A stretch of 64,000 nucleotides of DNA, taken from NCBI RefSeq assembly GCF_003751225.1, contig NZ_RJKE01000001.1:9734001-9798000 (forward strand), given 5' to 3'. The notes beneath the pieces were generated by a model that was given only the letters and a program-made list of their open reading frames with translations, had not been told where the DNA came from and made no database searches. A program made the translations under genes and the position numbers. Positions 9,312 through 62,215 of the stretch are shown piece by piece. Each line of letters starts with the position of its first letter. The first letter of the stretch is position 1. Source of the DNA: Actinocorallia herbida. Its GTDB lineage: Bacteria; Actinomycetota; Actinomycetes; Streptosporangiales; Streptosporangiaceae.

Positions 9312-9328
9312 GGCCGCGGGACCTACGG

Positions 9329-9358: not shown

Positions 9359-9449
9359 CTGGCGCCTGTCCAGGGGTTTTCGGGGGTTTTCCGGCCCGTG
9401 TCCGGGGTCACCTTCGACTTGCGGGGTACCGGCGGGTAAGCTATCTCTG

Positions 9450-9466
9450 ACCGAACCCCATTCGGT
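9450..9466. promoter_or_regulatory. Inverted repeat ACCGAA-N5-TTCGGT upstream of the thiolase
   Basis: A perfect 6-bp dyad with a 5-base spacer lies 41 bases before the thiolase start, within the region expected for the promoter. Its size suits a TetR-type or similar dimeric repressor. Which protein would bind is unknown. Confidence 0.4.
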
Positions 9467-9507
9467 TCAATGGGACGGAACCCACCCCTTAGAGCTTTGG
9501 AGGCGCA

Positions 9508-44111: not shown

Positions 44112-44142
44112 AAAGCGCCTCCGGCGTGAAATACATGGGGGC

Positions 44143-46369: not shown

Positions 46370-46387
46370 GCCCTTCGCCGCGCAATC

Positions 46388-47011: not shown

Positions 47012-47213
47012 CGGCAAACCCCGGATGATCCTCACGATCGAGAAAACTTCGCTCAAGAACGGGTCATCACTGGAGAGATCTCACGACACACCGCCCCCAG
47101 TGCTCGTCAAGACCTGACCCCGGTCCTACCGTCACGGACGTGAGCATGCCAACTTCCCGGAGCCGCATCGCTCCCGGGAGTGCTCGCCCAGAGCCGGTCC
47201 GGGAGGGATGTCG

Positions 47214-47900
47214 ATGAGCAGCACCCTCCTTTACCTGGCGATCGTCGCCGTCTGGGCCGTGGTGCTCGTGCCGATGTGGCTGCACCGCGACTCCGACGCG
47301 TCCTCCGGCTTCACCCGGCTGCTGGGCCGCCGCCCCCAGGCCGCCGAGTACGACGACTATCCGTTCGAGCAGGGCGAGGCCGAGTCCGTCGAGGTCACGG
47401 GCCGGAAGCCCGGATTCCAGGCCCCGGAGCCGACGGTCGAGGCCGCCGGATCCGAGGAGCCGGACGACGACCTGGACGTCCCCGAGCCCGTCCGCCGCCC
47501 CGCCCGTCAGCCGCTCACCCATGGCCACCGCCGCGCCCGCCGCTCGGCCGTCATAGCCCGCCGCCGCCGCAACACCACGACCCTCACCCTCTTCACCGCG
47601 GTCTCGCTCCTCTCCGCGCTCTTCACCCTCGCCCCCTGGTGGATCGCCCTCCCACCGTTCCTTCTCTTCGCCGCCCATCTGGCCCTCCTGCGCACCGCCA
47701 CCCGCATCGACGCGGTCCGCGCGGCCGAGCGCCGCGCCGACGCGGCGGCCGACGCCGCGGCCCGCCGCGCCGCGGAGGCGGCGGCCCGCCAGGCCGCGGC
47801 ACTCCGCCCGAACGCCGACATCCTCCCCTTCGCCGCGCGCCCCGAGCCCGTCGAGGTCTTCGACCAGTTCGCCGACCAGCCGAGGGCCGTCGGCAACTGA
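47214..47900 (+). CDS. sepX: Divisome membrane protein SepX/GlpR
   Basis: A 228-residue membrane protein matching SepX of Streptomyces (GlpR/GLP in corynebacteria), which helps organise division septa. It starts with an N-terminal helix (TLLYLAIVAVWAVVLVPMWL) followed by HRDSDASSGFTRLLGRR. A long acidic linker leads to a basic run (RRARRSAVIARRRR) and two more helices near 125-165, then an Ala/Arg-rich coiled tail. ATG 47214 is preferred to 47208 because GGGAGGG then has normal spacing. Position after the acetyltransferase agrees with the Streptomyces order. Confidence 0.85.
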   Translation: MSSTLLYLAIVAVWAVVLVPMWLHRDSDASSGFTRLLGRRPQAAEYDDYPFEQGEAESVEVTGRKPGFQAPEPTVEAAGSEEPDDDLDVPEPVRRPARQPLTHGHRRARRSAVIARRRRNTTTLTLFTAVSLLSALFTLAPWWIALPPFLLFAAHLALLRTATRIDAVRAAERRADAAADAAARRAAEAAARQAAALRPNADILPFAARPEPVEVFDQFADQPRAVGN

Positions 47901-47934
47901 ATCCCTCCGGGCCGGGGCCGGCCGGGTGGCCGCC

Positions 47935-48594
47935 TCAGCCGGGAAGCGGGGGCGCGTCGGGGGAGTCGCCATCGCCGTCGCCGAACCCGTCGCCGTCCTC
48001 GTCCTCGTCCACCAGGGGATCGGGGGCCTGCCAGGTCGCCACGACGAGCGGCAGCAGGGCGTGCGTCCCCAGCAGGGCGAACAGGATGAGGAACAGCGCG
48101 GCGGCCGGGATCCGCGAGTCCCGTCCCTCGTTGGCGAACATCGTCACGACGAGGGCGACGGCCATGACGACGGTCGTGCACCGGTGCGCGGTCGAGAACG
48201 CGCGGAGCCTGGCGGTCCGCTCCCGTTCGTCGAGTTCCCGCTCGGGCCGCGACGTCATGCCGCGGGTGAGCGCGATGAGCGCGCCGCCCAGCGGGAAGCC
48301 CGCCACCAGCAGCACGCCGAGGATGACGAAGTTGACGATCATCGCGGTGTCGCTCGGGGCCAGCACCCAGGAGGCCGCGGCGTCCGCCCAGAGCAGTGCC
48401 AGGCAGGCGCCGCCCGCGACCGCCAGCGCGCGCCGCGTGCGCCGCTTGCGGTACCGCGCGGGCATGCGCTGGTCCAGCTCCGCGTCCAGGACGCGCATGC
48501 TCTCCGCGCGCCGAAGGCGTGCCTTCGCCTTCTGCTCGTGCCACCAGGAGGGGCCTCGGTGGTCGTGGTTCGCCTGCCGTTCTTCGTGCGTCAT
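47935..48594 (-). CDS. Four-helix membrane protein of a small HTH operon
   Basis: A 219-residue membrane protein not assigned to a named family. Residues 1-60 are charged (RQANHDHRGPSWWHEQKAKA), then four hydrophobic spans occur around 66-85, 92-112, 140-155 and 170-190. The tail is rich in Asp and Gly (VDEDEDGDGFGDGDGD), which might bind calcium. ATG 48594 overlaps the stop of the upstream HTH gene as ATGA and follows GGGAG. Such small XRE plus membrane protein pairs are widespread; their function is unknown. Confidence 0.75.
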   Translation of the reverse strand: MTHEERQANHDHRGPSWWHEQKAKARLRRAESMRVLDAELDQRMPARYRKRRTRRALAVAGGACLALLWADAAASWVLAPSDTAMIVNFVILGVLLVAGFPLGGALIALTRGMTSRPERELDERERTARLRAFSTAHRCTTVVMAVALVVTMFANEGRDSRIPAAALFLILFALLGTHALLPLVVATWQAPDPLVDEDEDGDGFGDGDGDSPDAPPLPG

Positions 48595-48839
48595 GAAGTG
48601 CTCCCGATCCGTGGGAAGGGTTCGAGGGAGAAGATCACCTCGACGGGGACCTCGAAGTAGGCGGCGATGCGCAGGGCCAGGTGAAGGCTGGGGCTGTACT
48701 CGCCGCGCTCTAGATAGCCGATGGTCTGGTAGTGGACGCCGAGGGCGGTGGCGAGGTCGCGGCGCGAGACGCCGCGCTCGGCCCGCAGCATCGGGATCCG
48801 GTTGTGGACGGTTCCTTCGTCCTTCCTGCCGACGGACAT
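48591..48839 (-). CDS. Small XRE-type HTH regulator
   Basis: An 82-residue protein that is essentially one helix-turn-helix: RIPMLRAERGVSRRDLATAL, then GVHYQTIGYLERGEYSPSLH and VPVEVIFSLEPF. Such short regulators usually repress their own operon with a membrane protein, as here (ATGA overlap). ATG 48839 follows GAGG; ATG 48851 is possible. It is divergent from the AraC gene with a 126-base gap that probably holds promoters for both. Confidence 0.9.
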   Translation of the reverse strand: MSVGRKDEGTVHNRIPMLRAERGVSRRDLATALGVHYQTIGYLERGEYSPSLHLALRIAAYFEVPVEVIFSLEPFPRIGSTS

Positions 48840-48953
48840 CACGCCTCGCATCTCTTCGATCGTTGATAGCAGTTGTACTACATTCCATCGCAGATTCACA
48901 ATGAGATGGGAGGGGTGTGGGTGCTGAGGTGGAGGTACGCCCCTGATGTCGTT

Positions 48954-48959
48954 TAACTT
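48954..48959 (+). promoter_or_regulatory. Probable -10 (TAACTT) of the AraC gene, leaderless
   Basis: TAACTT is followed by six bases and ATG 48966 without a Shine-Dalgarno sequence. Confidence 0.45.
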
Positions 48960-48965
48960 CCTGTC

Positions 48966-49760
48966 ATGACCGTCATGAGCAGGGAGACCCGCACGCTGCC
49001 CGCGCTCGCGGCCGGGCCGGTCGAGGTCCCGTTCGTGATCCTGGGCTGGCGCGAGCTCATCGCCCGCGACACGACCTGGAACGAGCACTCCCATCCGTTC
49101 CACGAGCTGCTGTGGAACGAGCGGGGCGCGTCCACCGCGGTCGTGGGCGAGCGGGTCTGGACGATCACGCCGACGCTCGGCATGTGGATGCCCGCCGGGG
49201 TGCTGCACTCGGGCTCGGCGATCGCCGGAACGCTGTGCCGCGCGAACTTCTTCGGCTTCGGCACGATGACGCCGCTCGCCGACGCGCCCGTCGCCGTCGA
49301 GATCACCCCGCTGCTGCGGCTCCTGCTGGAACGCCTCGCCGACGGGTCGCTGCCGGACCGCTCGCGTGCGGTGACCGAGGCGATGGTCCTCGACGTCCTC
49401 GCGCCGTCGCCGCGTGAGCTGCTGCTCCAGATGCCCACGTCGGACCTCCTGCGCCCCATCGCCGACGCGATCCGCGAAGTCCCCGGAGACCAGCGCACCC
49501 TGACGGACTGGGCCCGCCACCTCGGCGTCAGCCCCCGCACCCTCACCCGCGCCTTCAACACCGAGACCGGCACGAGTTTCGCCCGCTGGGTCGCCGCGGT
49601 CCGCGCCCAGCACGCGGTGGCACTCCTCACCCGCGGTTGGGAGGTCGACGTCGTCGCCGAGGAGGTCGGCTACCGCTCCGCCAGCGCCTTCGGCGCCGCC
49701 TTCCGCCGCACCACCGGCCTCACCCCGGGCACCTTCCGCTGCGCGGACACGGCGAGCTAG
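48966..49760 (+). CDS. AraC-family transcriptional regulator with cupin domain
   Basis: A 264-residue regulator. Residues 15-100 form a cupin (NEHSHPFHELLWNERG, MWMPAGVLHSG) that binds a small ligand. Residues about 160-262 form the double helix-turn-helix (RTLTDWARHLGVSPRTLTRA, VDVVAEEVGYRSASAFGAAF, RTTGLTPGTFR). Targets are unknown; similar regulators often control an adjacent exporter or oxidoreductase, but none is beside it. Its TAG stop shares the tetramer CTAG with the stop of the convergent DUF397 gene. Confidence 0.9.
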   Translation: MTVMSRETRTLPALAAGPVEVPFVILGWRELIARDTTWNEHSHPFHELLWNERGASTAVVGERVWTITPTLGMWMPAGVLHSGSAIAGTLCRANFFGFGTMTPLADAPVAVEITPLLRLLLERLADGSLPDRSRAVTEAMVLDVLAPSPRELLLQMPTSDLLRPIADAIREVPGDQRTLTDWARHLGVSPRTLTRAFNTETGTSFARWVAAVRAQHAVALLTRGWEVDVVAEEVGYRSASAFGAAFRRTTGLTPGTFRCADTAS

Positions 49761-49948
49761 CGCTCACCGCGCAGCCCCCGCGCGAGGACGCGCAAGGCCG
49801 TACGGCCGAACGTGAGGTGCGCGTTCCCAGGATTCTTGGAGTCCCGGATCGCGATGGCGGAGCCGCGTTCCACCAGCTCGACACAAGCCCCAGAGCCGTC
49901 GCTGCGGCTGCTCTTGCGCCAAGCCGGGGTCGGGTCGGGTGTGCTCAC
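49757..49948 (-). CDS. DUF397 protein
   Basis: A 63-residue protein of the DUF397 family, which in Streptomyces development is seen as the partner of HTH-DUF5753 regulators. The hallmarks are present: AWRKSSRSDGSGACVELVER near the start and AIAIRDSKNPGNAHLTFGRT near the end. GTG 49948 overlaps the upstream regulator stop as GTGA. In studied pairs the small protein binds and counteracts the DNA-binding protein; that is inferred here. Confidence 0.93.
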   Translation of the reverse strand: MSTPDPTPAWRKSSRSDGSGACVELVERGSAIAIRDSKNPGNAHLTFGRTALRVLARGLRGER

Positions 49949-50757
49949 TTGCCCTCCGAGATCAAATGGATCAGCCGCGCGGACTCTCGCGCGGACAGAG
50001 CGGTCGCCCTGATCCGGTTGAAGAGTACGGCGAGAAGACCTACTTCGCGGAAGTCGGAGACGATCTGGCCGTGACCTCCGGCCGCGTCCAGGTAGGCGAC
50101 GTCAGGCTCATCCTCGAAGGAGAGGAGGTGGAACCCCGCAGCGGTGAAAGCGGGCTCTTCCCTGGGCACGATCTGGATGGATATCTTTGGATTCTCCAGG
50201 CGGTCGAGCAGGTGTTTGCACTGCTGTTCCTTGAGTGCCTTGGGCAGATCCCTCAGTACCGCCTCGCGCATGACCAGCGTGAACCAGGGTGCGTCCGGCC
50301 TGTCGAGCAGCCGCTGACGTTCCATGCGGATGGCGACCAATTCGTCGGTCTGCTCAGGCCGCTCGGCGGACTGGTGCATGAGGCGTGCCAAGTCCTCCGT
50401 CTGCATGAGCCCCGTGATCACAACGGGCTCGAACACGCTGATCCTGTTGGCGGACTGCTCCGCGTCGATGATCGGGCGATAGCCCCGGGGGATCAGGCCC
50501 TGTTTGCGGGCGTCGTCGAAGCGGTTCCACAGGCGGCGGAAGCTGCCGCCGGTCGCGAAGTAGGTGTCGAGGTCGTCGGCCAGGGCCGAAGACGCGGAGC
50601 TCTTCAGGGTCTCGACCTTGTCGAGCCACTGGCGGGTGCAGCCGAGGACCTCGGCGAGCTTGGCGCGGGACATGTCGGCGGCCTCTCTGCGCGCCGTCAG
50701 CTCGTCTGCGAAGGCTCTTTGCAGGCCCGATGTCTCGCTGCCTCCTACGGCCGTCAT
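49945..50757 (-). CDS. HTH (XRE) regulator with DUF5753 domain
   Basis: A 270-residue regulator. The helix-turn-helix lies at about 15-70 (QRAFADELTARREAADMSRA, KLAEVLGCTRQWLDKVE). DUF5753 covers about 95-265 (ISVFEPVVITGLMQTEDLAR, VREEPAFTAAGFHLLSFEDE shape with IQIVPREEP). It is the first gene of the pair with DUF397. Upstream lies a set of GGTTGC repeats spaced roughly by a DNA turn, a possible autoregulatory site. ATG 50757 has a GAGG nearby. Target genes other than itself are unknown. Confidence 0.92.
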   Translation of the reverse strand: MTAVGGSETSGLQRAFADELTARREAADMSRAKLAEVLGCTRQWLDKVETLKSSASSALADDLDTYFATGGSFRRLWNRFDDARKQGLIPRGYRPIIDAEQSANRISVFEPVVITGLMQTEDLARLMHQSAERPEQTDELVAIRMERQRLLDRPDAPWFTLVMREAVLRDLPKALKEQQCKHLLDRLENPKISIQIVPREEPAFTAAGFHLLSFEDEPDVAYLDAAGGHGQIVSDFREVGLLAVLFNRIRATALSARESARLIHLISEGK

Positions 50758-50774
50758 CCTCGGCTCCTTCGGTC

Positions 50775-50877
50775 GGTTGCGGCTGGTTGCCTGCTGGTTG
50801 CCTGCCGGTTGCGTGGTCGGCGTCGGCGGGTTGCGGGTTGCGTGCGTCGGGGGTGCGTGCGGCGCTCGCGCGGTTGC
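50775..50877. repeat. Seven GGTTGC repeats upstream of the HTH-DUF397 pair
   Basis: GGTTGC begins at 50775, 50785, 50796, 50807, 50829, 50836 and 50872. The first five steps of 10, 11, 11 and 22 bases follow helical turns, placing the copies on one DNA face. They lie 18-120 bases before the regulator start (GCAACC on its strand). Confidence 0.7.
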
Positions 50878-50967
50878 GTCACAGGGGGTGCTTGTTGCGT
50901 AGCCGACGGTAACCCCGGCATGCCAGGCTCGTCAGCGAAACGCCGGAGACCTGAGAAAGGGACGTGC

Positions 50968-51189
50968 ATGAGCGATTCGCTGGACCTCGCGAAGCTGCGG
51001 GGCGAGTACCCCGCGTGGATGATCCGGCCGACCGCCCAGGGGGCGTCGTTCATGGCGACGCGCGCCGACCGGTACGACCTCAGCTCGCAGGAGCTGGGCG
51101 CCGGTCTGGCCATGACGCTCATCGAGGACGACGTCGAGGGGCTGGCCGAGGCGCTGGCGGGGCAGGCGCGGATCGAGAGTGCGCGATGA
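50968..51189 (+). CDS. Small hypothetical protein, 73 residues
   Basis: ATG 50968 opens a 73-residue acidic protein (YPAWMIRPTAQGASFMATRA, then LGAGLAMTLIEDDVEGLAEA). The shape, with a Trp-containing start and an acidic end, is often found next to HTH-DUF397 genes in actinomycetes, where it is annotated as hypothetical. GAGAAAGGGACG precedes it. It overlaps the next gene by ATGA, so the two make an operon. It is divergent from the HTH regulator; the GGTTGC repeats lie between them and may control both. Confidence 0.7.
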   Translation: MSDSLDLAKLRGEYPAWMIRPTAQGASFMATRADRYDLSSQELGAGLAMTLIEDDVEGLAEALAGQARIESAR

Positions 51190-51398
51190 GCCTTCGCATC
51201 CTCGACTTCCTGGAGGCGGTCGTGGCGACGCCGTTCGGGCTCGCCGGGGCGGTCGCGCTGGCGGCGGTGGCCGGGCTGTTCTCCGTCATGTTGGGGGCCG
51301 TGGTCTATGAGGACCTTCAGCCGAAGGGGCGGCATCATCGGGCGCGGCGTTCTCGTCGCGATGGGAGTGTCCCGATCGCGATATCGGGTGTCTCATAA
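51186..51398 (+). CDS. Small membrane protein, 70 residues
   Basis: ATG 51186 overlaps the preceding stop. The 70-residue protein has one membrane helix (FGLAGAVALAAVAGLFSVML) and a basic C-terminal tail (RHHRARRSRRDG) that would be cytoplasmic. It is not recognised. Its coupling to the 73-residue gene suggests a joint role. It ends 40 bases before the iron box. Confidence 0.6.
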   Translation: MSLRILDFLEAVVATPFGLAGAVALAAVAGLFSVMLGAVVYEDLQPKGRHHRARRSRRDGSVPIAISGVS

Positions 51399-51439
51399 GC
51401 TTGATTGCGACAACTCGGTCATTTCTCCTAGGGTTCAGC

Positions 51440-51458
51440 CAAGGCAAGGCTTACCTAA
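51440..51458 (+). promoter_or_regulatory. Iron box (DtxR/IdeR/DmdR operator)
   Basis: CAAGGCAAGGCTTACCTAA matches the 19-base consensus TTAGGTTAGGCTAACCTAA at 14 positions, with the right half nearly perfect. It lies 95 bases before the siderophore-binding lipoprotein gene. The iron regulator at 3232 is the natural binder. Confidence 0.85.
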
Positions 51459-51552
51459 CTCGGGGCCTGCCGGGACGACGGTGCACCGCTCTGCGGAAGA
51501 GTCCCGCGACACGCGAGGGCCGGCACCCAGTGGACTGATAAGTGGAGTACGG

Positions 51553-52587
51553 ATGAAGCGCCCCCTCGGCCGAGTCCTCGTGACGGCCGCCCTTCTGGCC
51601 GGTGTCGCGGGTTGCGGCGGATCCTCGGACACCAAGGACGACAACGCGAGCGCCGCCCCCGCGGCCGCCTCCTACCCGATCACGATCGAGCACGCGCTCG
51701 GCACGACGACGATCACCGAGAAGCCCGAGCGCGTCGCGACCGTCAACTGGGCCAACCACGAGGTGCCGCTGGCCCTCGGCGTCGTCCCGGTCGGCATGGC
51801 CGCCGCGAACTTCGGCGACGACGACAAGGACGGCCTCCTGCCCTGGGTCAAGGAGCGCCTCGACGAGCTCAAGGCCGAGACCCCCGTGCTGTTCGACGAG
51901 ACCGACGGCATCGACTTCGAGGCCGTCGCCGACACGAACCCCGACGTGATCCTCGCCGCCTACTCGGGCCTCACCCAGCAGGACTACGACACCCTCAGCG
52001 ACATCGCCCCCGTCGTCGCCTACCCCGAGATCGCCTGGGGCACCGCGTGGCGCGACAGCATCAAGCTGAACAGCAAGGCGATGGGCATGGAGGCCGAGGG
52101 CGACAAGCTCATCACCTCGATCGAGGGCGAGATCACCGAGGTCGTGGGCAAGTACCCGCAGCTCAAGGACAAGTCGATCATGTTCATGACGCATGTCGAC
52201 CCGGGTGACGTCAGCGAGATCGGCTTCTACACCAGGGCCGACACCCGCACCCTCTTCTTCGAGGACCTCGGCCTGAAGGTCGCCGACAGCATCGTCGAGG
52301 CGTCGAAGGACGGCCAGTTCGCCGGAACCATCAGCGCCGAGCAGATCGACGTGTTCGACGACGTCGACATCATCACCGGCTACGACTCCGCCGAGGGCGG
52401 CCTCCTGGACATCTTCCAGAAGGACGCGCTCCTGTCGAAGATCCCGGCCATCGAGCGCGGCTCGGCCTACCTGCTCCCCAGCACCGAGCCCCTCGGCACC
52501 GCCGCCAACCCGACTCCCCTCTCCATCTCGTGGGTCCTTGAGGACTACGTCAAGGCCCTCGCCGGCGCCGCCGACAAGGTCAAATGA
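51553..52587 (+). CDS. Iron-siderophore ABC importer, substrate-binding lipoprotein
   Basis: A 344-residue lipoprotein. The signal ends in the lipobox LLAGVAGC, with lipid attached to the Cys near residue 20. The mature part is a FecB/FhuD-type bi-lobed binding protein (KPERVATVNWANHEVPLALG, DTNPDVILAAYSG, GSAYLLPSTEP). It captures a ferric siderophore outside the membrane and passes it to the two permeases that follow. ATG 52584 of the next gene overlaps its stop. The iron box upstream predicts induction by iron shortage. No siderophore biosynthesis genes are adjacent, so it may use a foreign or distantly encoded siderophore. Confidence 0.95.
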   Translation: MKRPLGRVLVTAALLAGVAGCGGSSDTKDDNASAAPAAASYPITIEHALGTTTITEKPERVATVNWANHEVPLALGVVPVGMAAANFGDDDKDGLLPWVKERLDELKAETPVLFDETDGIDFEAVADTNPDVILAAYSGLTQQDYDTLSDIAPVVAYPEIAWGTAWRDSIKLNSKAMGMEAEGDKLITSIEGEITEVVGKYPQLKDKSIMFMTHVDPGDVSEIGFYTRADTRTLFFEDLGLKVADSIVEASKDGQFAGTISAEQIDVFDDVDIITGYDSAEGGLLDIFQKDALLSKIPAIERGSAYLLPSTEPLGTAANPTPLSISWVLEDYVKALAGAADKVK

Positions 52588-53627
52588 CCGCGGTGGACGC
52601 ATCGCGCGCGCCGGACACCGCCATCGTGCGGCGTCCGGCGCGCGTGCGCGTGCTCTGGCTGGTGGTCGGGCTCGTGGTGCTGGGCGCGGTCATGTTCGCG
52701 TCGGTCGCCTTCGGGTCGCGGGTCGTCGGGTGGGACGACGTGTGGGCGGGGCTCGGCGGGGCCACCGGGACGCTGGAGGAGGCCTCGGTCGCCAAACGGG
52801 TGCCGCGGACGCTCCTCGCGGTCCTGATCGGGGCGGCGCTCGCGCTCGCGGGAGCGGTCATGCAGGGCGTGACGCGCAACCCGCTGGCCGACCCGGGCAT
52901 CCTCGGCGTGAACATGGGGGCTTCCCTCACCGTCGTCGTCGCCGTCGCGTTCTTCGGGCTCGGCTCGCCGACCGGGTACATCTGGGTCGCGATGGCCGGG
53001 GCCGGGGCGTCGGCGGTGTTCGTCTACGTCGTCGGGTCGCTCGGCCGGGGCGGCGCGACTCCGCTCAAGCTCGCGCTCGCCGGGACGGCCACCTCGGCCG
53101 CCTTCGCCTGCCTCGTCAGCGCCGTCGTGCTGCCCCGCAACGACATCGCCGAGAGCTTCCGGCTCTGGCAGATCGGCGGCGTCGGCGGTGGATCCTACGA
53201 GCGGATCGGGCAGGTGCTGCCGTTCCTGATCGCCGGATTCCTGATCTGCCTGCTGTCCGCGCGCGGCCTGAACTCCCTGGCCCTCGGCGACGAACTCGCC
53301 GCGGGACTCGGCGAACGCGTCGCCGTCATCCGGGGCTGCGCCGCGCTCGGCGCGGTCGTGCTGTGCGGGTCCGCGACGGCCGTCGCAGGGCCGATCGCGT
53401 TCGTCGGGCTCGTCGTCCCGCACGCCTGCCGGCTCCTCGTCGGAGTCGACCACCGGTGGCTGCTGCCGTTCTCCGCGATCACCGGCGCCGCCCTGCTCAC
53501 CGCCGCCGACGTCGTCGGCCGCGTCGTGGCCCGGCCGCAGGACATCGAGGTCGGCATCATCACCGCGCTGATCGGCGCGCCGTTCTTCATCCACATCGTC
53601 CGCCGTCAGAAGGTGCGTGAGCTGTGA
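52584..53627 (+). CDS. FecCD-family iron-siderophore permease, first subunit
   Basis: A 347-residue permease with about ten helices. Typical segments are KRVPRTLLAVLIGAALALAG, QGVTRNPLADPGILGVNMGA, the coupling region GDELAAGLGERVAVIRG and GPIAFVGLVVPHACRLLVG. It forms the channel with the next gene product. It starts at ATG overlapping the lipoprotein stop and ends in a GTGA overlap with the second permease. Confidence 0.95.
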   Translation: MTAVDASRAPDTAIVRRPARVRVLWLVVGLVVLGAVMFASVAFGSRVVGWDDVWAGLGGATGTLEEASVAKRVPRTLLAVLIGAALALAGAVMQGVTRNPLADPGILGVNMGASLTVVVAVAFFGLGSPTGYIWVAMAGAGASAVFVYVVGSLGRGGATPLKLALAGTATSAAFACLVSAVVLPRNDIAESFRLWQIGGVGGGSYERIGQVLPFLIAGFLICLLSARGLNSLALGDELAAGLGERVAVIRGCAALGAVVLCGSATAVAGPIAFVGLVVPHACRLLVGVDHRWLLPFSAITGAALLTAADVVGRVVARPQDIEVGIITALIGAPFFIHIVRRQKVREL

Positions 53628-54679
53628 GCGCCCCAGCCCTGGCAGCGCCGCCCGCCGTCGTCAAGGCCGTCGCCGAAGGCCGCCGCAGGCGCGCGGCGCG
53701 GCGGCGGGCCGTCATCGGCCTGCTCGCCGCCCTCGTCGCCCTCGGGTTCGCGGTGACGCTGATGGTCGGCCGGACGTTCTACCCGCCCGGAGACGTATGG
53801 CGGGTCGTCCTCGGCGAACAGGTGCCGGGCGCGACCTTCACCGTCGGACGTCTCCGGCTGCCGCGCGGCGTCCTGGCCGTCGTCGCCGGGTTCAGCTTCG
53901 GCATCGCGGGCGTGACCTTCCAGACGATGCTCCGCAACCCGCTCGCCAGCCCCGACATCATCGGCATCAGCTCCGGCGCGAGCGCGGCGGCGGCCATCGC
54001 GATCGTGTCGTGGTCGCTGGGCGGCGCCCAGGTGTCGGTCATCGCGATCGTCTCCGCCCTCGTCGTCGCGCTGCTCGTGTACACGCTGGCGTTCCGCGAC
54101 GGGGTCGTCGGCACCCGCCTGATCCTCATCGGCATCGGCATCTCCGCGATGCTCGACAGCGTCACCTCCTACGTGCTGTCCGAGGCCGCCGAATGGGACC
54201 TCGCCGAGGCGACCCGCTGGCTGACCGGCAGCCTCAACGGAGTCGGCTGGGAGCAGACCGTCCCCGCCTTGGTCGTGCTCCTCGCCCTGGCGCCGGTCCT
54301 GCTGGCGAAGGCGCGCGACCTGAACTCGCTGCAGCTCGGCGACGACACCGCCTCGGCCCTCGGCGTTCGGGTCGAACGCGCCCGGATCGTCCTGATCGTC
54401 GCTGCCGTCTGCCTCATCGCGTTCGCCACCGCGGCGTCCGGCCCCATCGCCTTCGTCGCCTTCCTTTCCGGGCCCATCGCGGCCCGTCTCGTCGGCGCGG
54501 GCGGCTCGCTGCTGGTGCCCGCAGGGCTCGTCGGCGCCCTACTCGTGCTCTCCGCCGACTTCATCGGCCAGTACGCCTTCGACGTCCGCTACCCCGTCGG
54601 CGTCGTCACCGGCGTCCTCGGCGCCCCCTACCTCGTCTACCTGATCGTCCGTTCGCATCGGGCGGGAGGCTCGCTATGA
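53624..54679 (+). CDS. FecCD-family iron-siderophore permease, second subunit
   Basis: A 351-residue permease paralogous to the previous one: RLPRGVLAVVAGFSFGIAG, QTMLRNPLASPDIIGISSGA, LGDDTASALGVRVERAR and GPIAFVAFLSGPIAARLVG. It differs in having a proline-poor basic start (KAVAEGRRRRAARRRAVIG). GTG 53624 overlaps the first permease stop. It ends in an ATGA overlap with the ATPase gene. Confidence 0.95.
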   Translation: MSAPALAAPPAVVKAVAEGRRRRAARRRAVIGLLAALVALGFAVTLMVGRTFYPPGDVWRVVLGEQVPGATFTVGRLRLPRGVLAVVAGFSFGIAGVTFQTMLRNPLASPDIIGISSGASAAAAIAIVSWSLGGAQVSVIAIVSALVVALLVYTLAFRDGVVGTRLILIGIGISAMLDSVTSYVLSEAAEWDLAEATRWLTGSLNGVGWEQTVPALVVLLALAPVLLAKARDLNSLQLGDDTASALGVRVERARIVLIVAAVCLIAFATAASGPIAFVAFLSGPIAARLVGAGGSLLVPAGLVGALLVLSADFIGQYAFDVRYPVGVVTGVLGAPYLVYLIVRSHRAGGSL

Positions 54680-55494
54680 CCACATCCCACACCCTCGCCG
54701 CCGAGAACCTCGCGCTCGGCTACGGCGACCGCCTCGTCGTGGAGTCCCTCGACCTCGCGATCCCGCCCGGCCGGATCACCGTCATCGTGGGCGCGAACGC
54801 CTGCGGGAAGTCGACGCTCCTGCGCTCGCTGTCCCGGCTGCTCCCGCCCCGTGAAGGCCGCGTCGTCCTGGACGGCAAGGAGGTGCACCGGATGAACGCC
54901 AAGGAACTGGCCCGTACGCTCGGGCTCCTTCCGCAGTCGCCGGTGGCCCCGGAGGGCATCACCGTGCTCGACCTCGTAGGACGCGGCCGCCACCCCCATC
55001 AAGGGATCTTCTCCCGGTGGAACGACAAGGACGATGTCGCCGTGGCCGCCGCCTTGGAGGCCACCCAGACGACCGACCTTGCCGACCGGGCCGTCGACGA
55101 GCTCTCCGGCGGGCAGCGCCAGCGCGTCTGGATCGCCATGGCCCTCGCCCAGCAGACCGACCTCCTGCTCCTGGACGAGCCGACGACCTTCCTCGACGCG
55201 AGCCACCAGGTCGAGGTCCTCGACCTGCTGACCGACCTCAACCGCGACCGCGGCACCACGATCGTCATGGTCCTGCACGACCTCAACCTCGCCGCCCGCT
55301 ACGCCGACCACCTCATCGCCCTCGCCGACGGTGGACTCCACTCCGCCGGCACCCCGGACGAGGTCCTGACCGAGGAATGCGTCCGCACGGTCTTCGGCCT
55401 GGACAGCCGCATCATCGAGGACCCGGTCTCCGGCCGGCCCCTGATGCTCCCGATCGGCCGCCACCACATCCTTGCGGAGGCTCCCGGCGCCTAG
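54676..55494 (+). CDS. Iron-siderophore ABC importer ATPase
   Basis: A 272-residue ATPase of the FepC/FhuC type. Walker A is VIVGANACGKSTLLRSLSRL, the signature is ELSGGQRQRVWIAMALAQQ, Walker B is LLLLDEPTTFLDASHQ, and the switch His is in VLHDLNLAARYADH. It completes the four-gene importer. The TAG stop shares a CTAG with the stop of the convergent TetR gene. Confidence 0.96.
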   Translation: MTTSHTLAAENLALGYGDRLVVESLDLAIPPGRITVIVGANACGKSTLLRSLSRLLPPREGRVVLDGKEVHRMNAKELARTLGLLPQSPVAPEGITVLDLVGRGRHPHQGIFSRWNDKDDVAVAAALEATQTTDLADRAVDELSGGQRQRVWIAMALAQQTDLLLLDEPTTFLDASHQVEVLDLLTDLNRDRGTTIVMVLHDLNLAARYADHLIALADGGLHSAGTPDEVLTEECVRTVFGLDSRIIEDPVSGRPLMLPIGRHHILAEAPGA

Positions 55495-56105
55495 CCCTCG
55501 ACGGGTTCGCTCTCCGGGCCGAGAAGGGCGTCTATGACGTCGCGGAGCGGGCCCCGAAGGGCGTCGGGCGTGGCGTCGCGCAAGGGCTGGAGGCCGACGG
55601 CCGAGCGTATGACGGCGACGCCCACGCCGAGGGCCACCAGGAGCTCCGCGCGAAGCAGCCTCTCCGGGTCCTTCTCGGGGCCGGTCCCCGAGCCGTCGAG
55701 GATCTGGCGGGTGAAGTCCTGGAGGGCGGCGCGGCGCAGGGCGTCGACCTGTTCGTCGCCGGAGACGCGCAGCAGCATCAGCACGGGGTGCTCGCCGAAC
55801 TCGGGCCAGGCGTCGGCGGAGAGCTGGCGGCTCAGCGCGTCGGCGAGGCGCGCACGGTCGCCGGGGACCCCGGCCGGGCCGCCGAGCGCGCGTGGCGTGC
55901 TCGCGATGGCCGCCTTGAACAGGCCCTCTTTGGAGTCGAAGTAGCGCTTGATGAGCGCGAGGTTGACCCCAGCGTCGGCGGCGACCTCCCGCAGCGTCGT
56001 CCCGTCGTAGCCGAGCCGCGTGAACCTGCGGCGCGCGGCCTCCAGGAGCGCCTGGCGCGTGGCGGCGGCATCGCGCCTACGGGGCGCTCCGGATGCGTCG
56101 GCCAT
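55491..56105 (-). CDS. TetR-family transcriptional regulator
   Basis: A 204-residue repressor. Residues 10-60 carry the helix-turn-helix (RQALLEAARRRFTRLGYDGT, TLREVAADAGVNLALIKRYF). The C-terminal ligand domain resembles the TetR_C_16-type (SRQLSADAWPEFGEHPVLML). It is divergent from the isochorismatase-fold hydrolase and probably represses it through the repeats around that promoter. ATG 56105 follows a GGAGG seven bases upstream. Confidence 0.9.
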   Translation of the reverse strand: MADASGAPRRRDAAATRQALLEAARRRFTRLGYDGTTLREVAADAGVNLALIKRYFDSKEGLFKAAIASTPRALGGPAGVPGDRARLADALSRQLSADAWPEFGEHPVLMLLRVSGDEQVDALRRAALQDFTRQILDGSGTGPEKDPERLLRAELLVALGVGVAVIRSAVGLQPLRDATPDALRGPLRDVIDALLGPESEPVEG

Positions 56106-56166
56106 CGGACGTCCTCCTTTCGCGCGACGGACCGGGCATGAGCATAGCCGCAGCCTTTCCGGTCAA

Positions 56167-56229
56167 GTAATCATCCGTTGACATACCCGCCCGGGCGGCG
56201 CTAACGTGCGCAAGTCATCAACTGATTAC
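56167..56229. promoter_or_regulatory. Long inverted repeat GTAATCA ... TGATTAC around the hydrolase promoter
   Basis: Perfect 7-bp arms at 56167-56173 and 56223-56229 flank the promoter. Nested GTCAA at 56162 and TTGAC at 56178 form a second dyad with an 11-base spacer. These are candidate binding sites for the adjacent TetR regulator. Confidence 0.5.
56178..56207 (+). promoter_or_regulatory. Sigma-70 type promoter of the isochorismatase-fold hydrolase
   Basis: TTGACA at 56178 and TAACGT at 56202 are separated by 18 bases, a near-consensus housekeeping promoter, about 50 bases before the TTG start. The -35 lies within a dyad that a TetR repressor could cover. Confidence 0.7.
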
Positions 56230-56260
56230 ATAGTTCAGCCCAGGTCGGAGGCGTATTCCG

Positions 56261-56803
56261 TTGGCCCAGCAGGCCCTCCTCGTCATGGACGTCCAGCGCG
56301 TCGTCGTCGCCCGCTTCCCCGACCCGGCGTACCTGCCGCGGCTCCAGGAGGCCATCGCGAAGGCGCGTGCCGCGGGGCTCCCCGTCATCTACGTGACCGT
56401 CGGCTTCCGCCCCGGCTACCCCGAGGTCGCTCCGCAGAACCGGATGTTCGGCGGCCTCAAGCGCATGCCCTCCGCCCCCGACCCCGCCCTCAGCGACGTC
56501 CATCCCGACGTCGCCCCCGAGCCCGGCGACCCCATCGTCGTCAAGCGCCGCGTCAGCGCCTTCTCCGGCAGCGACCTGGACCTCCTCCTGCGCGCCCAGG
56601 GCATCACCCACCTCGTCCTGACCGGCATCGCCACCGGTGGCGTCGTCCTCTCCACCCTCCGCGAGGCCGCCGACCTCGACTACACCCTCACCGTCCTCGC
56701 CGACGCCTGCCTGGACGCCGACCCCGAAGTCCACACCGTCCTCACCACCAAGGTCTTCCCCATGCAGGCCGACGTCATGGACACCGCCACCTGGGCGCCC
56801 TGA
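56261..56803 (+). CDS. Isochorismatase-fold hydrolase without the usual nucleophilic Cys
   Basis: A 180-residue protein of the cysteine hydrolase/isochorismatase family. The catalytic Asp is in LLVMDVQRVV and the Lys in PIVVKRRVSAFSGSDLD. Where amidase-type members carry Cys (TGIATxxCV), the sequence reads TGIATGGVVLSTLREA, so the nucleophile is absent. PhzD-type isochorismatases also lack Cys and cleave a vinyl ether, so that chemistry is possible. TTG 56261 follows GGAGGCGTA. Divergent TetR control suggests response to a small molecule. Confidence 0.88.
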   Translation: MAQQALLVMDVQRVVVARFPDPAYLPRLQEAIAKARAAGLPVIYVTVGFRPGYPEVAPQNRMFGGLKRMPSAPDPALSDVHPDVAPEPGDPIVVKRRVSAFSGSDLDLLLRAQGITHLVLTGIATGGVVLSTLREAADLDYTLTVLADACLDADPEVHTVLTTKVFPMQADVMDTATWAP

Positions 56804-56907
56804 CCGAACCGCGCTCAACCGAGCGGGCAGTCGCCGACGGGGCCGGCGGCCGCCCGCTCGTCACGTGGACGGCCGGTCGTCCGGCAAGATGCGGGACTTG
56901 GTGCTGG

Positions 56908-56962
56908 GAAATATGTCATATGGCGCATTTCCGGTATTTTTTGGATTTGATTATTTGTTATC
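56908..56962. other. AT-rich island upstream of the kinase-GUN4 gene
   Basis: About 55 bases rich in A and T (AAATATGTCATATGG, GGTATTTTTTGGATTTGATT) stand out from the GC-rich genome in the 216-base gap before 57020. TACGAT at 56982 may be a -10. An open frame through it lacks a ribosome binding site and was not called. Confidence 0.5.
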
Positions 56963-57019
56963 GGGGTGGGATTCGGTCGTTTACGATGAGAGGGGATTTG
57001 AGGTTATTGGGGAGGCGGG

Positions 57020-58414
57020 GTGGAGCCGTTGTGGGTGGGAGATCCGGAGGTTATCGGTCCTTATCGGCTGGTGGGGCGGTTGGGGGAGGGGGGAATGGGG
57101 GTCGTCTTCCTCGGCCGACGGGTCGGGTCGGCGGGCGGATGGGACGCGGTCAAGCAGATCGCCGGGGAACGGAGCGGCGATCCGCAGTACCGGCGGAGGT
57201 TCGCGCGTGAGGTGCAGGCGGCGCGGCGGGTGCGGGGGCGGTACACGGCGGAGGTGCTGGACGCCGATCCCGGGGCCAGGCGGCCGTGGATGGCCACGCA
57301 GTTCGTCCAGGGGCCGTCCCTGCGCGACGCGGTGCTGCACCACGGGCCGCTCAGCCCGTGGAACGTGCGGAGGCTGGGCGCCGACCTCGTGCGGGGCCTC
57401 TCCGCCGTCCACGCGGCGCGGCTGGTGCACCGGGACCTGAAGCCCGGGAACATCCTGCTCGCCGCCGACCGGGCGGTCATCATCGACTTCGGCGTCGCGC
57501 GGTTCACCGACGCGAGCACCCTCACGGCGGACGGAAGACAACCGGGAACGCCTGCCTATATGTCACCGGAACAGGTGAAAGGCCACACCCGCGACATCAC
57601 TCATGCTTCGGACGTCTTCTCGCTGGGCTCGGTGCTCACCTTCGCCGCGACGGGCGGGACGCCTTTCGAACGGGAGGCGCGTGAGGCGGTGCAATACGCG
57701 ATCGTCAATGAACCCCCACGGCTGGACGGACTCACCGGCGAACTGCACGGAATCGTCGCGGCGTGCCTCGCGCCGGTCCCGGCCGACCGCCCTGCGCTCG
57801 GCGAACTGCTCGCCCTCCTGGACGCCGCCGACATCCCCAAGGGCTGGCCCCCGCCCGTCCAGGAGATGATCACCGCCCTCGATCCGACCAGGACCGCGCC
57901 GGCCGAGACCGTCCAGGAATCTCCCGCCGTGGGGGAAGGGCTGGACGAGTTGCGCCGCCTCCTCGCCGAAGGCCGGCACACCGAGGCGGACGGCCGGACG
58001 ACCGAGGTGCTCCTGGAGGCCGCCGGACGGGGAACCCAGGGCTGGCTCCGCGAGGAAGGCGCCAAGGACGTCCCCGCCGAGCTGCTCAACGAGCTCGACG
58101 CGCTGTGGGCGGCGGCCGCGCCGGCCTGGGGATTCCGGGCGCAGCTCGCCCGCCTCGCCGCCGAAGGCCTCGGCGGCTCGCGCGACTTTCGCAAGATCGC
58201 CCTCGCGCTGGGCTGGCGCCGCGACGGCGACGACCCCTACCCGCCCTATCCGGCCTTCGCCCGGCGAGCCGATGACTCCGGCCCGTTCTACCCCACCCTG
58301 CGCAGCCCGCGCCGCGAGGAGGCGCAGAGCCAGGACCAGGGCTGGTTCCGGGTCTGGACCACGAACGTGCTGGCCGTCCACGCCCGCCTCCGCAGATGGG
58401 AGAGATCGCTGTGA
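57020..58414 (+). CDS. Ser/Thr protein kinase fused to a GUN4-like domain
   Basis: A 464-residue cytosolic protein. Residues 14-270 are a Hanks-type kinase: Gly loop GRLGEGGMGVVFLGRR, Lys 45 in WDAVKQI, catalytic HRDLKPGN at 137-144, DFG 156-158 and GTPAYMSPEQ. No transmembrane helix or PASTA repeat follows. Residues about 308-430 match the GUN4 fold in order: LRRLLAEGRHTEADGRTTEV, AAGRGTQGWL, LLNELDALWAAA, WGFRAQLARLA, LALGWR, and a late aromatic/Pro loop. In phototrophs GUN4 binds porphyrins. GTG 57020 follows GGGGAGGCGG. Its stop overlaps the SPFH gene as GTGA, so the two act together. Confidence 0.85.
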   Translation: MEPLWVGDPEVIGPYRLVGRLGEGGMGVVFLGRRVGSAGGWDAVKQIAGERSGDPQYRRRFAREVQAARRVRGRYTAEVLDADPGARRPWMATQFVQGPSLRDAVLHHGPLSPWNVRRLGADLVRGLSAVHAARLVHRDLKPGNILLAADRAVIIDFGVARFTDASTLTADGRQPGTPAYMSPEQVKGHTRDITHASDVFSLGSVLTFAATGGTPFEREAREAVQYAIVNEPPRLDGLTGELHGIVAACLAPVPADRPALGELLALLDAADIPKGWPPPVQEMITALDPTRTAPAETVQESPAVGEGLDELRRLLAEGRHTEADGRTTEVLLEAAGRGTQGWLREEGAKDVPAELLNELDALWAAAAPAWGFRAQLARLAAEGLGGSRDFRKIALALGWRRDGDDPYPPYPAFARRADDSGPFYPTLRSPRREEAQSQDQGWFRVWTTNVLAVHARLRRWERSL

Positions 58415-59979
58415 TCGTGTTCCTGGCCCTGCTCGTCCTCGCGTTCGCCGCCGCAGCCGTGGTCACGGGGACGCGGACGGTGCCCGACGGCCATGTCGGT
58501 CTCGTCGTCCGCCGGTTCGGCATCCGCTCGAACCGGGACGACCCCCGGGTGAGTCACCTCGACGGTCCAGGGCCCCAGGCGGGCATCCTGAACGAGAACA
58601 CCCGCACCTGGCTGCCATGGGGTCTCTACGACGTCCGGTTCGTTCCGCAGACGTACGTCCCCATAGGCACCGTCGGCCTCGTCGTCGCCAAGGCGGGGGC
58701 GCAGCGTCCGCCGCACGAGCCGCTCGCCGCGTACGTCGAGTGCGACCGCTTCCAGGACGGCGCGCGCTTCCTGGCCGGCGGCGGCCAGCGCGGGCCGCAG
58801 CTCGAGGTGCTCACCAGCGGCCACTACGCCATCAACCCGTTCATCTTCGATGTCCTCACCGTCGAAACGCTCGGCGGCGAGGAGCGGGAGGGCATCGTCG
58901 CCGCCGACCTGCGCGAGGTCGACGTCAAGGTCGGCGAGACCGGGGTGGTGATCACCCGCCTGGGGCAGCGCCCGCCCGGCGACTGGAACGAGACGGGGCG
59001 CGGCGTCGGCGGGCACTGGGGCTTCCAGCTCCCCTGGCGGTTCCTGGAGGGCGGCGGCCAGGTCGGCGTCCAGAGCGAGACGCTGGACGAAGGGGGCACC
59101 TACGCGATCAATCCGTGGTTCGCGCACGTGGTGAAGATCCCTTCGCGGGTGCTGGTGCTGCAGTGGACGGCCGAGCGGAGGTCCGCCGACAACCTGGACG
59201 CCTCGCTCGACCAGATCGTCCTGGACGTCCAGGGCCACACGGTCCGGATGAGCCTCAAGCAGACGCTGCGCATCCCGCCCGAGGCGGCGCCCCGGCTCGT
59301 CCGCCGCTTCGGGGACCTGGGCGGCGGGGCCAGCGCGCGCGCCGCCGCCGGCCGGATCCCCGTCCAGCAGTTCGTGGAGAAGGAGCTGGGCGCCGCGGTC
59401 GTCGGCTACTTCCGCGGGATCGCGGCCACGTACCGGATCCAGGAGTTCATCACCCGCTACAACGAGGTGGGCCTCGAACTGAAGGACCACGTCCGCCAGG
59501 CGCTCGGCCCGACCGGGGTGATCGCGCTGGAGACGACGCTCGAGGAGTTCGAGTGCGACGAACCCGAGGTCAACAGGATGCGCCGGGAGATCGCCCTGGT
59601 CGCCGAGAAGCGGCGCAAGGAGGAGGCCCTGACCGAGCTGCTCAACCTCCGCCGCGACAACGAGCGCATCATCGTGGACATCGAGGCCCAGAAGCTCCGC
59701 CTGCGCGACGAGGAGAACCGCGTCTCCCACGACGAGCAGCGCCGGCTCATCGAACTGTTCGGCAAGGAGCACGTCCAGCTCGAACGCGTCCTGGCGCTCT
59801 TGGCGGACATCCCCGTCCCCGACGTCGTCATGGGCGACGCGACCGGCCTGGGCAGCGGCATCCCCCTGGCCAACATCAAGGATCTCGTCCTCAACCTCGC
59901 CCGCCGCGCCAACCACACCGTCGACCCCCACCCGGACTACACCGAACTGGAAGCCACCGAACTGGAGGACGAAACCTGA
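58411..59979 (+). CDS. Membrane-anchored SPFH (band 7) protein with three tandem N-terminal modules
   Basis: A 522-residue protein. Residues 1-20 are a membrane helix (VFLALLVLAFAAAAVV). Three similar modules follow, each opening like an SPFH domain: VPDGHVGLVVRRFG, VPIGTVGLVVAKAG and VKVGETGVVITRLG. Modules two and three also share GGGQ and YAINP segments. Residues about 240-380 form the SPFH core and about 385-455 a charged coiled coil (EKRRKEEALTELLNLRRDNE). Such proteins make membrane scaffolds. GTG 58411 is chosen for its GTGA overlap with the kinase and GGGAGAG upstream; ATG 58396 is possible. Confidence 0.85.
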   Translation: MIVFLALLVLAFAAAAVVTGTRTVPDGHVGLVVRRFGIRSNRDDPRVSHLDGPGPQAGILNENTRTWLPWGLYDVRFVPQTYVPIGTVGLVVAKAGAQRPPHEPLAAYVECDRFQDGARFLAGGGQRGPQLEVLTSGHYAINPFIFDVLTVETLGGEEREGIVAADLREVDVKVGETGVVITRLGQRPPGDWNETGRGVGGHWGFQLPWRFLEGGGQVGVQSETLDEGGTYAINPWFAHVVKIPSRVLVLQWTAERRSADNLDASLDQIVLDVQGHTVRMSLKQTLRIPPEAAPRLVRRFGDLGGGASARAAAGRIPVQQFVEKELGAAVVGYFRGIAATYRIQEFITRYNEVGLELKDHVRQALGPTGVIALETTLEEFECDEPEVNRMRREIALVAEKRRKEEALTELLNLRRDNERIIVDIEAQKLRLRDEENRVSHDEQRRLIELFGKEHVQLERVLALLADIPVPDVVMGDATGLGSGIPLANIKDLVLNLARRANHTVDPHPDYTELEATELEDET

Positions 59980-60074
59980 CCCCCGCCCCCACCCCCACCA
60001 GAACCGCCCCACCCCACGGCCAACGCCCGATGCGCCAACCACTCCGGATGTTTGCTAAGGTTAACCCGTTCCTA

Positions 60075-60148
60075 GGGGATGTAGCGCAGTCCGGTAGCGC
60101 ACTTCGTTCGCATCGAAGGGGTCAGGGGTTCGAATCCCCTCATCTCCA
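60075..60148 (+). tRNA. tRNA-Ala(CGC)
   Basis: A full cloverleaf: acceptor GGGGATG with CATCTCC containing the G3-U70 pair that marks alanine tRNAs, D-arm GCGC, anticodon stem CTTCG/CGAAG around TTCGCAT with anticodon CGC, T-arm AGGGG-TTCGAAT-CCCCT, discriminator A. It reads GCG. CCA is not fully encoded. It marks the start of an accessory-looking stretch. Confidence 0.95.
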
Positions 60149-60160
60149 CCTGAGGTAAAG

Positions 60161-61156: not shown

Positions 61157-61340
61157 GGCTGCCCAAGAAGCGACCCCAGGCGGCGGGAGCAACACAGAGC
61201 TTCCCGCCGCTTGGGTTCTTCGAATCGCGGATCAGCACGTCGCGGGCCCTGCGAGGGGCATCGACGATCGCCCCGACCTCAACGCAATTGCCTTCGCCGC
61301 TCGCGGAAGCCTTCCGCCATCCAGTGAAAATTGCGCTCAT
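61146..61340 (-). CDS. DUF397 protein
   Basis: A 64-residue protein with the DUF397 pattern: GWRKASASGEGNCVEVGAIV and VLIRDSKNPSGGKLCVAPAA. ATG 61340 overlaps the HTH regulator stop by ATGA. The central insertion DAPRRARD is a little longer than in the copy at 49757. It is predicted to act with the HTH regulator. Confidence 0.93.
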   Translation of the reverse strand: MSAIFTGWRKASASGEGNCVEVGAIVDAPRRARDVLIRDSKNPSGGKLCVAPAAWGRFLGSLRT

Positions 61341-62215
61341 CCCCCTAGCTCACCCATCCATCCTTTGAGTAGTTCTCTTGTCTTTTCCCGATCAAGCGCA
61401 GCCCTCGTGGTAGCGATGAAGAGATTAGAGTAAGAGGCTACTTGCTGTGGATCATCGAACCAGGCATTGGTCTGCGTGAGAAGTTCGACATTGACAGTCT
61501 CGGGATCGGTCGGAACGCGAGATGAGAAGATCGTAAACGGCTCCGAGGCGCGCATCGCCCCCGACTTGAACGGGCTCACCAGAACTTGCACGTTAGGGAG
61601 CCAAGAGCATTCGATCAGGTGGGCTATCTGCTCCCTCATCACGGGGACTCCGCCGACAAGACGCCTGATCGCAGCCTCGTCAATGATCGCCCACAGGCTC
61701 TCTAGCTTGTGCTCTCCGCGCAATAGGCGACGCTGGCGTTCAAGGCGGAGCGCGATGAGAGCTTCCCGTTTCTCGGGCGCAGTGTCCTCGTAGACATCAA
61801 TCTGGGCTTCCATATATGAACGGCATTGCAGGAGGCCGGGGATGAGCCGGGGCTCCCATGTGCGGATCTCTGCGGCCTCGTCTTCGCTTCGCAAATGGGT
61901 GATGAAGCCGGGTGTCAGGGCTGGCTGGTATTCGTCGCGGTCCCACCAGTCGGGCTGGCGGGCGTCGGCGACGAGCTGGGCGATGCGGTCCCGCTCGGCC
62001 TGGTCGTGAACACCGAGCTCATCGAGCAGGTCCAGGATGCCGCCGCTTGCCCCGCTGAGCATCGGCTTGATGACGTCGCCGGCCTCCCAGCGGATGATCT
62101 TCTTGGGGTGCCAGCCGCAGGCCTCGGCCACGTCCTCGGGAGTTCGTCCGGTCGCTTGTCGGAGCTCCTCAAGGGCTTTGCCGAGGCGTCTCCGTCTCAT
62201 GTTACGTGTCGGCAT
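61337..62215 (-). CDS. HTH (XRE) regulator with DUF5753 domain
   Basis: A 292-residue regulator. Helix-turn-helix about 8-65 (KALEELRQATGRTPEDVAEA, WHPKKIIRWEAGDV). DUF5753 about 105-285 (RTWEPRLIPGLLQCRSYMEA, VQVLVSPFKSGAMRASEPFT). Codon use near the 3' end is less GC-rich than in core genes (runs such as GAGTAGTTCTCTTG), suggesting acquisition. ATG 62215 or 62200 may be the start. A 7-bp dyad 30 bases upstream is a likely operator. Confidence 0.92.
   Translation of the reverse strand: MPTRNMRRRRLGKALEELRQATGRTPEDVAEACGWHPKKIIRWEAGDVIKPMLSGASGGILDLLDELGVHDQAERDRIAQLVADARQPDWWDRDEYQPALTPGFITHLRSEDEAAEIRTWEPRLIPGLLQCRSYMEAQIDVYEDTAPEKREALIALRLERQRRLLRGEHKLESLWAIIDEAAIRRLVGGVPVMREQIAHLIECSWLPNVQVLVSPFKSGAMRASEPFTIFSSRVPTDPETVNVELLTQTNAWFDDPQQVASYSNLFIATTRAALDREKTRELLKGWMGELGG

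Follow-up and report, generated by a model that had tools for sequence, protein, structure and literature searches.

What do two overlapping genes, one joining a Ser/Thr protein kinase to a GUN4 domain and the other encoding an SPFH membrane protein, do together in Actinocorallia herbida? Both lie in a stretch of 64,000 nucleotides from contig NZ_RJKE01000001.1 (hereafter the window, in whose coordinates positions are given unless another locus is named), and an earlier note on this DNA had suggested that the kinase signals at a scaffolded membrane patch. Taken together, the comparisons described here show that the pairing of GUN4 and SPFH genes is conserved and not due to chance, and that the GUN4 domain, the tail that follows it and the SPFH protein are the constant parts, the N-terminal domain being exchangeable and the kinase one of the several forms it takes. 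In apparently non-photosynthetic soil bacteria the pair has the look of an immune or self-destruct system not described before.

The first gene (57020..58414, + strand, GTG start) encodes a 464-residue Ser/Thr kinase-GUN4 fusion. Its kinase domain, the exchangeable effector part (residues 15-264; 57062..57811, +), matches PF00069 with an E-value of 3.4e-35 and carries GEGGMG at residue 22, K45, HRDLKPGN at 137, DFG at 156 and SPE at 182, which correspond to the glycine loop, VAIK-type lysine, HRD, DFG and APE-type motifs; judged by these, the Hanks-type kinase is complete with its catalytic motifs intact, as the note had described it. The GUN4 domain (residues 308-411; 57941..58252, +) scores 40.3 bits against PF05419 (E 4.5e-10; curated cut-off 29.2), and a constant C-terminal tail follows it (residues 412-464; 58253..58411, +). 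When a profile of GUN4 plus tail built from 39 loci was compared with the PDB, six sequences matched up to E 1, five of them GUN4 proteins (E 6.9e-11 to 5.5e-7) and the sixth unrelated (E 0.1), so that the GUN4 assignment made in the note, together with the hidden Markov model check it had proposed, is borne out, and at the level of sequence the domain is a true member of the GUN4 family. Within the tail P425, T426, P430, E433, W442 and W446 are invariant in all 39 rows and R428 is kept in 38. This gene is the sole PF05419 match of the 9.8-Mb genome, in which the photosynthetic reaction-centre family PF00124 has no match, in agreement with the note's view of the host as a non-phototroph. The intergenic stretch 5' of the gene (56804-57019) has a G+C content of 0.60 compared with 0.71 for the whole window and is likely its promoter region.

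The kinase-GUN4 stop codon (TGA, 58412-58414) overlaps the SPFH gene with either possible start codon of the latter, ATG 58396 or, in the same frame, GTG 58411, the second giving the GTGA overlap that had been noticed before. From the ATG the SPFH/Band 7 membrane protein has 527 residues (58396..59979, +), with a Band_7 domain at residues 224-406 (59065..59613, +; PF01145, 37.5 bits against a cut-off of 23.6, E 3.3e-9) and an N-terminal hydrophobic, presumed transmembrane segment at residues 4-22 (58405..58461, +) of mean hydropathy 3.12 over 19 residues, which together agree with the earlier description of a membrane-anchored SPFH protein, the anchor being predicted. That description also called the protein triple-module; its modules are indeed repeated, with an extra copy in several relatives seen as overlapping local matches, and the label is fair, the count of three having been judged by eye. 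At E-values up to 1 a profile of the SPFH proteins matched 13 PDB sequences, of which nine belong to stomatin, prohibitin or QmcA and four are unrelated. Among PHROGs, a set of phage-protein families, we found matches to kinase families and to a 'lipoprotein' family across the Band 7 part, none of them informative for the question here.

Is the pairing found elsewhere? We searched 341 genomes of the host's family with two profiles, each built from nine family loci, one of the GUN4 domain plus tail (A1) and one of the SPFH protein (A2, threshold E <= 1e-20). A1 gave 20 matches, 18 strong and 2 weak, and A2 matched 22 genomes; the SPFH protein was present in all 18 genomes with a strong A1 match as against 4 of the remaining 323 (Fisher p 1.9e-26), and in all 18 the two genes were adjacent and in the same order. 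The two weak matches (G034 and G167; L069 9481-10773 and L070 8784-10463) are TIR-GUN4 genes with a more canonical GUN4 domain (bit scores 98 and 92) and without an SPFH match within 20 kb. Another genome, G610, holds a second SPFH homologue (C475:28208-29908), with its lone GUN4-plus-tail match on a different contig.

Beyond the family, a scan of genome contigs with a single SPFH sequence gave no match, and a later scan with the SPFH profile found 35 loci, 34 of them actinobacterial (Streptomyces, Lentzea, Saccharothrix, Actinocrispum, Parafrankia, Actinomadura, Nonomuraea and others), the remaining weak match from Gallionellaceae being dropped. A GUN4 gene lies directly upstream of the SPFH gene in 30 of the 34; of the other four, two lack a GUN4 match and encode a longer SPFH protein (L100 and L121), and L129 (G068) and L130 (G099) have an SPFH protein truncated at its C-terminus. 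The extra C-terminal region of L100 and L121 (genes at 7953-10160 and 7743-10082, respectively), about 200 residues without a Pfam match, is perhaps an alternative adaptor. After removal of 11 duplicate loci (9 with GUN4) the set of distinct pair loci came to 39, with 18 in the family and 21 elsewhere, and in every one the GUN4 gene stands directly 5' of the SPFH gene on the same strand, with <=24 nt between the GUN4 stop and the start of SPFH homology in 28 of them and <=280 nt in all 39. The survey of relatives that the note had called for upholds the neighbourhood. The distances among SPFH proteins and among GUN4-plus-tail sequences are correlated (Mantel r 0.80, a value reached in none of 5000 permutations), which, since the permutation ignores shared ancestry, shows joint descent more than contact. 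Outside the family the GUN4-plus-tail module is rare: a further profile (A3) matched 2 of 315 other genomes in a sample of the class, both with GUN4 and a TIR-like domain (so called with a profile of single-TIR proteins) adjoining an SPFH gene, and PF05419 matched none of the 295 genomes other than the host's in a sample of the phylum.

If the pair is constant, what is the kinase for? Among the 39 loci it occurs only in the window; 26 loci have a double TIR in its place, six a single TIR, one a caspase (L066) and one a trypsin-VMAP-M8-TIR arrangement (L117, Streptosporangium saharense), while two N-termini lack a Pfam match (L059, L099) and two are cut by a contig end (L108, L123). These assignments come from a Pfam scan of 38 of the 39 GUN4 proteins (L108 was left out), in which the N-terminal families were Pkinase, TIR_2, Peptidase_C14, and Trypsin_2 with VMAP-M8; PF05419 itself was above its cut-off in 35 of the 38, below it in L061 and L117 and without a match in L131, and all three match the GUN4-plus-tail profile. 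In eight family relatives the gene beside SPFH aligns to the window protein only after about residue 289, that is over GUN4 and the tail. A tree of the SPFH proteins, made by a quick method from 43 rows and showing L066 and L121 on long branches, places the window together with L059 and L099 (99% by the Shimodaira-Hasegawa-like approximate likelihood-ratio test). By BLAST the N-terminal domain of these two does not match the window kinase. Five changes among the six effector states suffice on this tree, the minimum possible for six states. Some of these N-termini also match PADLOC models, namely those of defence TIRs, a caspase and the LmuA protease. Kinase signalling, which the note had suggested for the pair, is rejected as its core function because the kinase is a minority effector present in 1 of 39 loci.

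Several observations concern the effectors individually. On the SPFH tree L059 and L099 were labelled 'cyclase?', and a class III cyclase was considered for their N-terminus, since the motifs seemed to fit; it was set aside, as neither Pfam nor a PDB profile search gave support and hhalign against four cyclases from the A. herbida genome returned P 0.45 and 0.15, with 0.28 for a reversed control. In the second TIR of double-TIR proteins (for example L062 and L063) the glutamate of the single-TIR motif WVEREI is often M or K; in L104, L105, L109, L111 and L114 it is E, an observation made at the level of the motif. Before the double TIR-GUN4 gene of L115 stands a gene (4708-6264) with a C-terminal TIR domain and a putative cyclase-like N-terminus, so called by its motifs.

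The commonest version of the pair has a companion. A free-standing TIR open reading frame lies near it in 24 of the 39 loci (L108, whose N-terminus is cut, and 23 of the 26 with a double TIR) and in none of the 11 with kinase, caspase, trypsin, single-TIR or unassigned N-termini, the profile used having been built from nine genes of double-TIR loci and L108 and hence favouring those loci. The companion is <=1.5 kb from the pair in nearly all cases, the match in L135 and L136 being a long open frame that overlaps the pair, and many of these frames begin with a hydrophobic stretch as judged by eye. Large plasmids of Streptomyces clavuligerus carry this three-gene version: all 16 plasmid records examined contain GUN4 plus tail, the order on two of them is TIR, TIR-GUN4 (two TIR by eye) and SPFH, and in the laboratory strain ATCC 27064 the three genes likewise lie on the large plasmid. 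Apart from this gene no neighbour cluster is common to more than 4 of the 39 loci within 5 kb, the survey having covered 5 kb around all 39 loci and up to 20 kb around 12 family loci. A regulator-like gene in the window (61337-62215) has relatives near three pair loci (L059, L061 and L099) and probably belongs to a common actinobacterial family rather than to the cassette.

By blastn, a 12.1-kb stretch of the window (47901..60049) that contains the pair corresponds to 30 bp in the same-genus genome G016; window positions 44001-47900 are largely collinear with G016, in which a tRNA-Ala gene follows after these 30 bp, and in the window tRNA-Ala(CGC) (60075..60150, +) lies directly downstream of the SPFH gene at the edge of the variable region. 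The difference is either an insertion in the window or a deletion in G016. Pfam identifies a periplasmic binding protein and an AraC-type regulator in the same stretch, and permease, ATPase, TetR and isochorismatase-like genes are assigned by reading only; an ATP-binding cassette (ABC) importer operon (51307-55494) is made up of the binding protein, which is siderophore-type (Peripla_BP_2 by Pfam), and, by reading, two permease-like frames and an ATPase. In the other genome of the genus that was searched, G075, two TPR genes stand on one side of the same tRNA, one joined to a kinase and one with an NB-ARC match below threshold; the other side holds a NACHT-WD40 gene and an integrase-like frame (so labelled by reading), and a repeat of 46 bp from the tRNA 3' end, 6 kb away, marks the limit of this second side. 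In G075 (L149 1600-13400) the tRNA-Ala(CGC) gene looks like a hotspot. Mobility of the window cassette itself through tRNA attachment (att) sites was considered and rejected, since the last 22 tRNA bases occur once in the window and so no att pair was found.

What might such a pair do? We think it probable, though by no means assured, that it is a two-gene, membrane-coupled conflict cassette, in which the GUN4-plus-tail adaptor and the SPFH protein are the constant parts and the fused N-terminal effector is the variable one. SPFH proteins of the stomatin, prohibitin and QmcA kinds assemble into large rings or cages on membranes, and TIR and caspase effectors elsewhere are activated by clustering. 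If the SPFH protein is held in the membrane by its single N-terminal helix, the K/R-rich sequence that follows this segment (five K/R in the next 25 residues and none in the preceding three if the start is ATG 58396, with a similar K/R-rich sequence in most of the 39 proteins) would by the positive-inside rule place its body in the cytosol, where GUN4 could dock. Combining ring formation, a cytosolic body and activation by clustering, we infer a chain of platform, adaptor and effector: a multimeric SPFH platform would face the cytosol as in stomatins and prohibitins, GUN4 and its tail would dock the effector onto it, the conserved tail being the leading candidate for the contact surface, the effectors might be clustered or released in response to a GUN4 ligand or to a signal from the membrane or an infection, and they would then act by phosphorylation, NAD/nucleotide cleavage or proteolysis to bring about growth stop or cell death. 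The patchy presence of the pair, its presence or absence with 12 kb beside a tRNA, and the immune-type genes at that tRNA in a relative all fit a conflict system, and the link to defence that the earlier note had raised gains plausibility from architecture and context, the defensive role itself being our reading of these. A bolder version, which we hold more tentatively and rate somewhat short of even, is that the pair founds a new class of immune signalosome, with an SPFH cage on the cell membrane as platform, GUN4, otherwise a domain of chlorophyll-synthesis regulators, as a death-domain-like adaptor, plug-in TIR, caspase, trypsin or kinase effectors and, in the commonest subtype, a third, apparently membrane-anchored TIR.

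Several points weigh against the conflict-cassette interpretation. The defence role is inferred by guilt by association, the SPFH topology is based on K/R counts, and the PDB likeness of the SPFH protein is weak (best match stomatin, E 0.00097; others 0.12 or worse), so that oligomerisation rests on family analogy. No PADLOC family was matched by the SPFH proteins of the window, L062 and L121. The kinase version has no conserved third gene, and the 12-kb stretch includes ordinary genes such as the ABC importer and regulators. The SPFH protein also occurs without GUN4 in 4 of its 22 family genomes (G068, G099, G537 and G572), and more distant relatives are present in 17 of the 295 other genomes of the phylum sample, none with a PF05419 match; flotillin-like relatives on Rhizobium plasmids match part of the protein. 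As SPFH relatives occur without GUN4, this kind of SPFH protein is older or wider than the pair.

The same asymmetry bears on the alternative that survives best, a toxin-antidote arrangement in which the SPFH protein restrains a dangerous GUN4-effector, keeping it inactive at the membrane until the SPFH protein is lost or disturbed. A strong GUN4-plus-tail gene without SPFH was seen in 0 of 18 family genomes and SPFH alone in 4 of 22, as expected of a toxin and its antidote, but the effector gene comes first and SPFH second, there is no small labile partner, and of the four genomes with SPFH alone two have a truncated, diverged protein that looks as though it were no longer under selection. 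We regard this arrangement as unlikely.

Less likely still is a tetrapyrrole sensor, in which GUN4 would bind heme or a porphyrin and switch the kinase or another enzyme at an SPFH patch. In its favour are the genuine homology to GUN4 and the window's importer upstream of the pair; moreover, of the porphyrin contacts F196 and R214 of Synechocystis GUN4 named in one report (PMC8967248), F196 aligns to F413 of the window protein, a position that is F in 31 of the 39 loci and L in 8. In these matches, made by PDB sequence alignments only, the GHLP segment of GUN4 aligns to [G/P]F[F/Y]P of the tail, but at the R214 position, six residues past that proline, neither arginine nor any other residue is conserved among the 39 rows, the near-invariant R428 lying three residues before it. 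Porphyrin binding may thus be kept in altered form or lost. A general link between GUN4 and the importer is rejected because the importer is not shared by any of the 12 other family loci and at most 2 of the 39 loci share such a cluster within 5 kb. The effector set, too, is one of death and defence proteins, which speaks against a tetrapyrrole sensor. Least probable is ordinary membrane-stress or raft signalling, in which the scaffold, of a flotillin-like kind, would arrange a signalling enzyme and conflict would play no part: SPFH proteins organise membrane patches in many bacteria and distant relatives without GUN4 exist elsewhere in the phylum, but the pair is patchy (18 of 341 family genomes) and exchanges unrelated effectors, with TIR, caspase and trypsin among its partners.

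Were the conflict-cassette reading right, a domain known from chlorophyll synthesis, GUN4, would take a place in bacterial immunity or programmed death, an SPFH protein would gain a concrete partner and job, and a compact system would be at hand whose single chassis accepts kinase, TIR, caspase or protease effectors.

How does the pair compare with systems already described? We found no description of a GUN4-SPFH pair in the full-text literature available to search, which left out most subscription journals and all bioRxiv preprints, and to that extent the earlier statement that no described system has this pair stands for the pair itself. The kinase-GUN4 fusion in itself is already known: one was described in Nostoc in 2005 (PMC1262709), with GUN4 C-terminal as in the window protein, and several cyanobacterial ones in 2007 (PMC2176072). 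Cyanobacterial fusions to kinase, caspase, trypsin and TIR (PMC1262709, PMC2176072, PMC3501461, PMC7159879) resemble those seen here in joining GUN4 to the same enzyme types, and are called cyanobacterial and thought to report the status of chlorophyll synthesis or photosynthesis; the present loci differ in being actinobacterial, in their distinct constant tail and in having an SPFH neighbour in all 39.

Closest in general design are the effector-swapping systems of Kaur 2020 (VMAP ternary systems and 'System 4'; PMC7159879, PMC8195603). Kinases, caspases, trypsins and TIR are listed both among GUN4 partners and among conflict-system effectors, Band7 domains occur in VMAP systems, and a two-gene membrane system is built on another core (PMC7159879), while the GUN4 of those systems is confined to cyanobacteria, as the 2021 follow-up likewise states (PMC8195603). 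Those systems and the present pair alike have a fixed core fitted with exchangeable effectors, and they share effector types, Band7 domains, a membrane link and occurrence in actinobacteria; one locus here carries VMAP-M8. However, the core of those systems is vWA-MoxR-VMAP or EACC1, whereas here it is GUN4 and SPFH, and neighbour clustering, with no search by vWA, MoxR or EACC1 profiles, placed no such core beside the effector. The architecture speaks for placing the pair among effector-swapping conflict systems in the broad sense, but under no named system of that class.

Two further comparisons concern the proteins themselves. The PADLOC model PDLC04062 of PD-T4-6 aligns to residues 86-400 of the window protein, across kinase and GUN4 (E 5.7e-31), and is also matched by kinase-less proteins here through GUN4 alone; PD-T4-6 is a single-gene system. 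The SPFH protein, for its part, resembles stomatin, prohibitin and QmcA in having a membrane anchor and a Band 7 domain followed by a charged stretch that looks helical by eye, and differs from them in its long repeated N-terminal modules and its weak similarity to their PDB entries.

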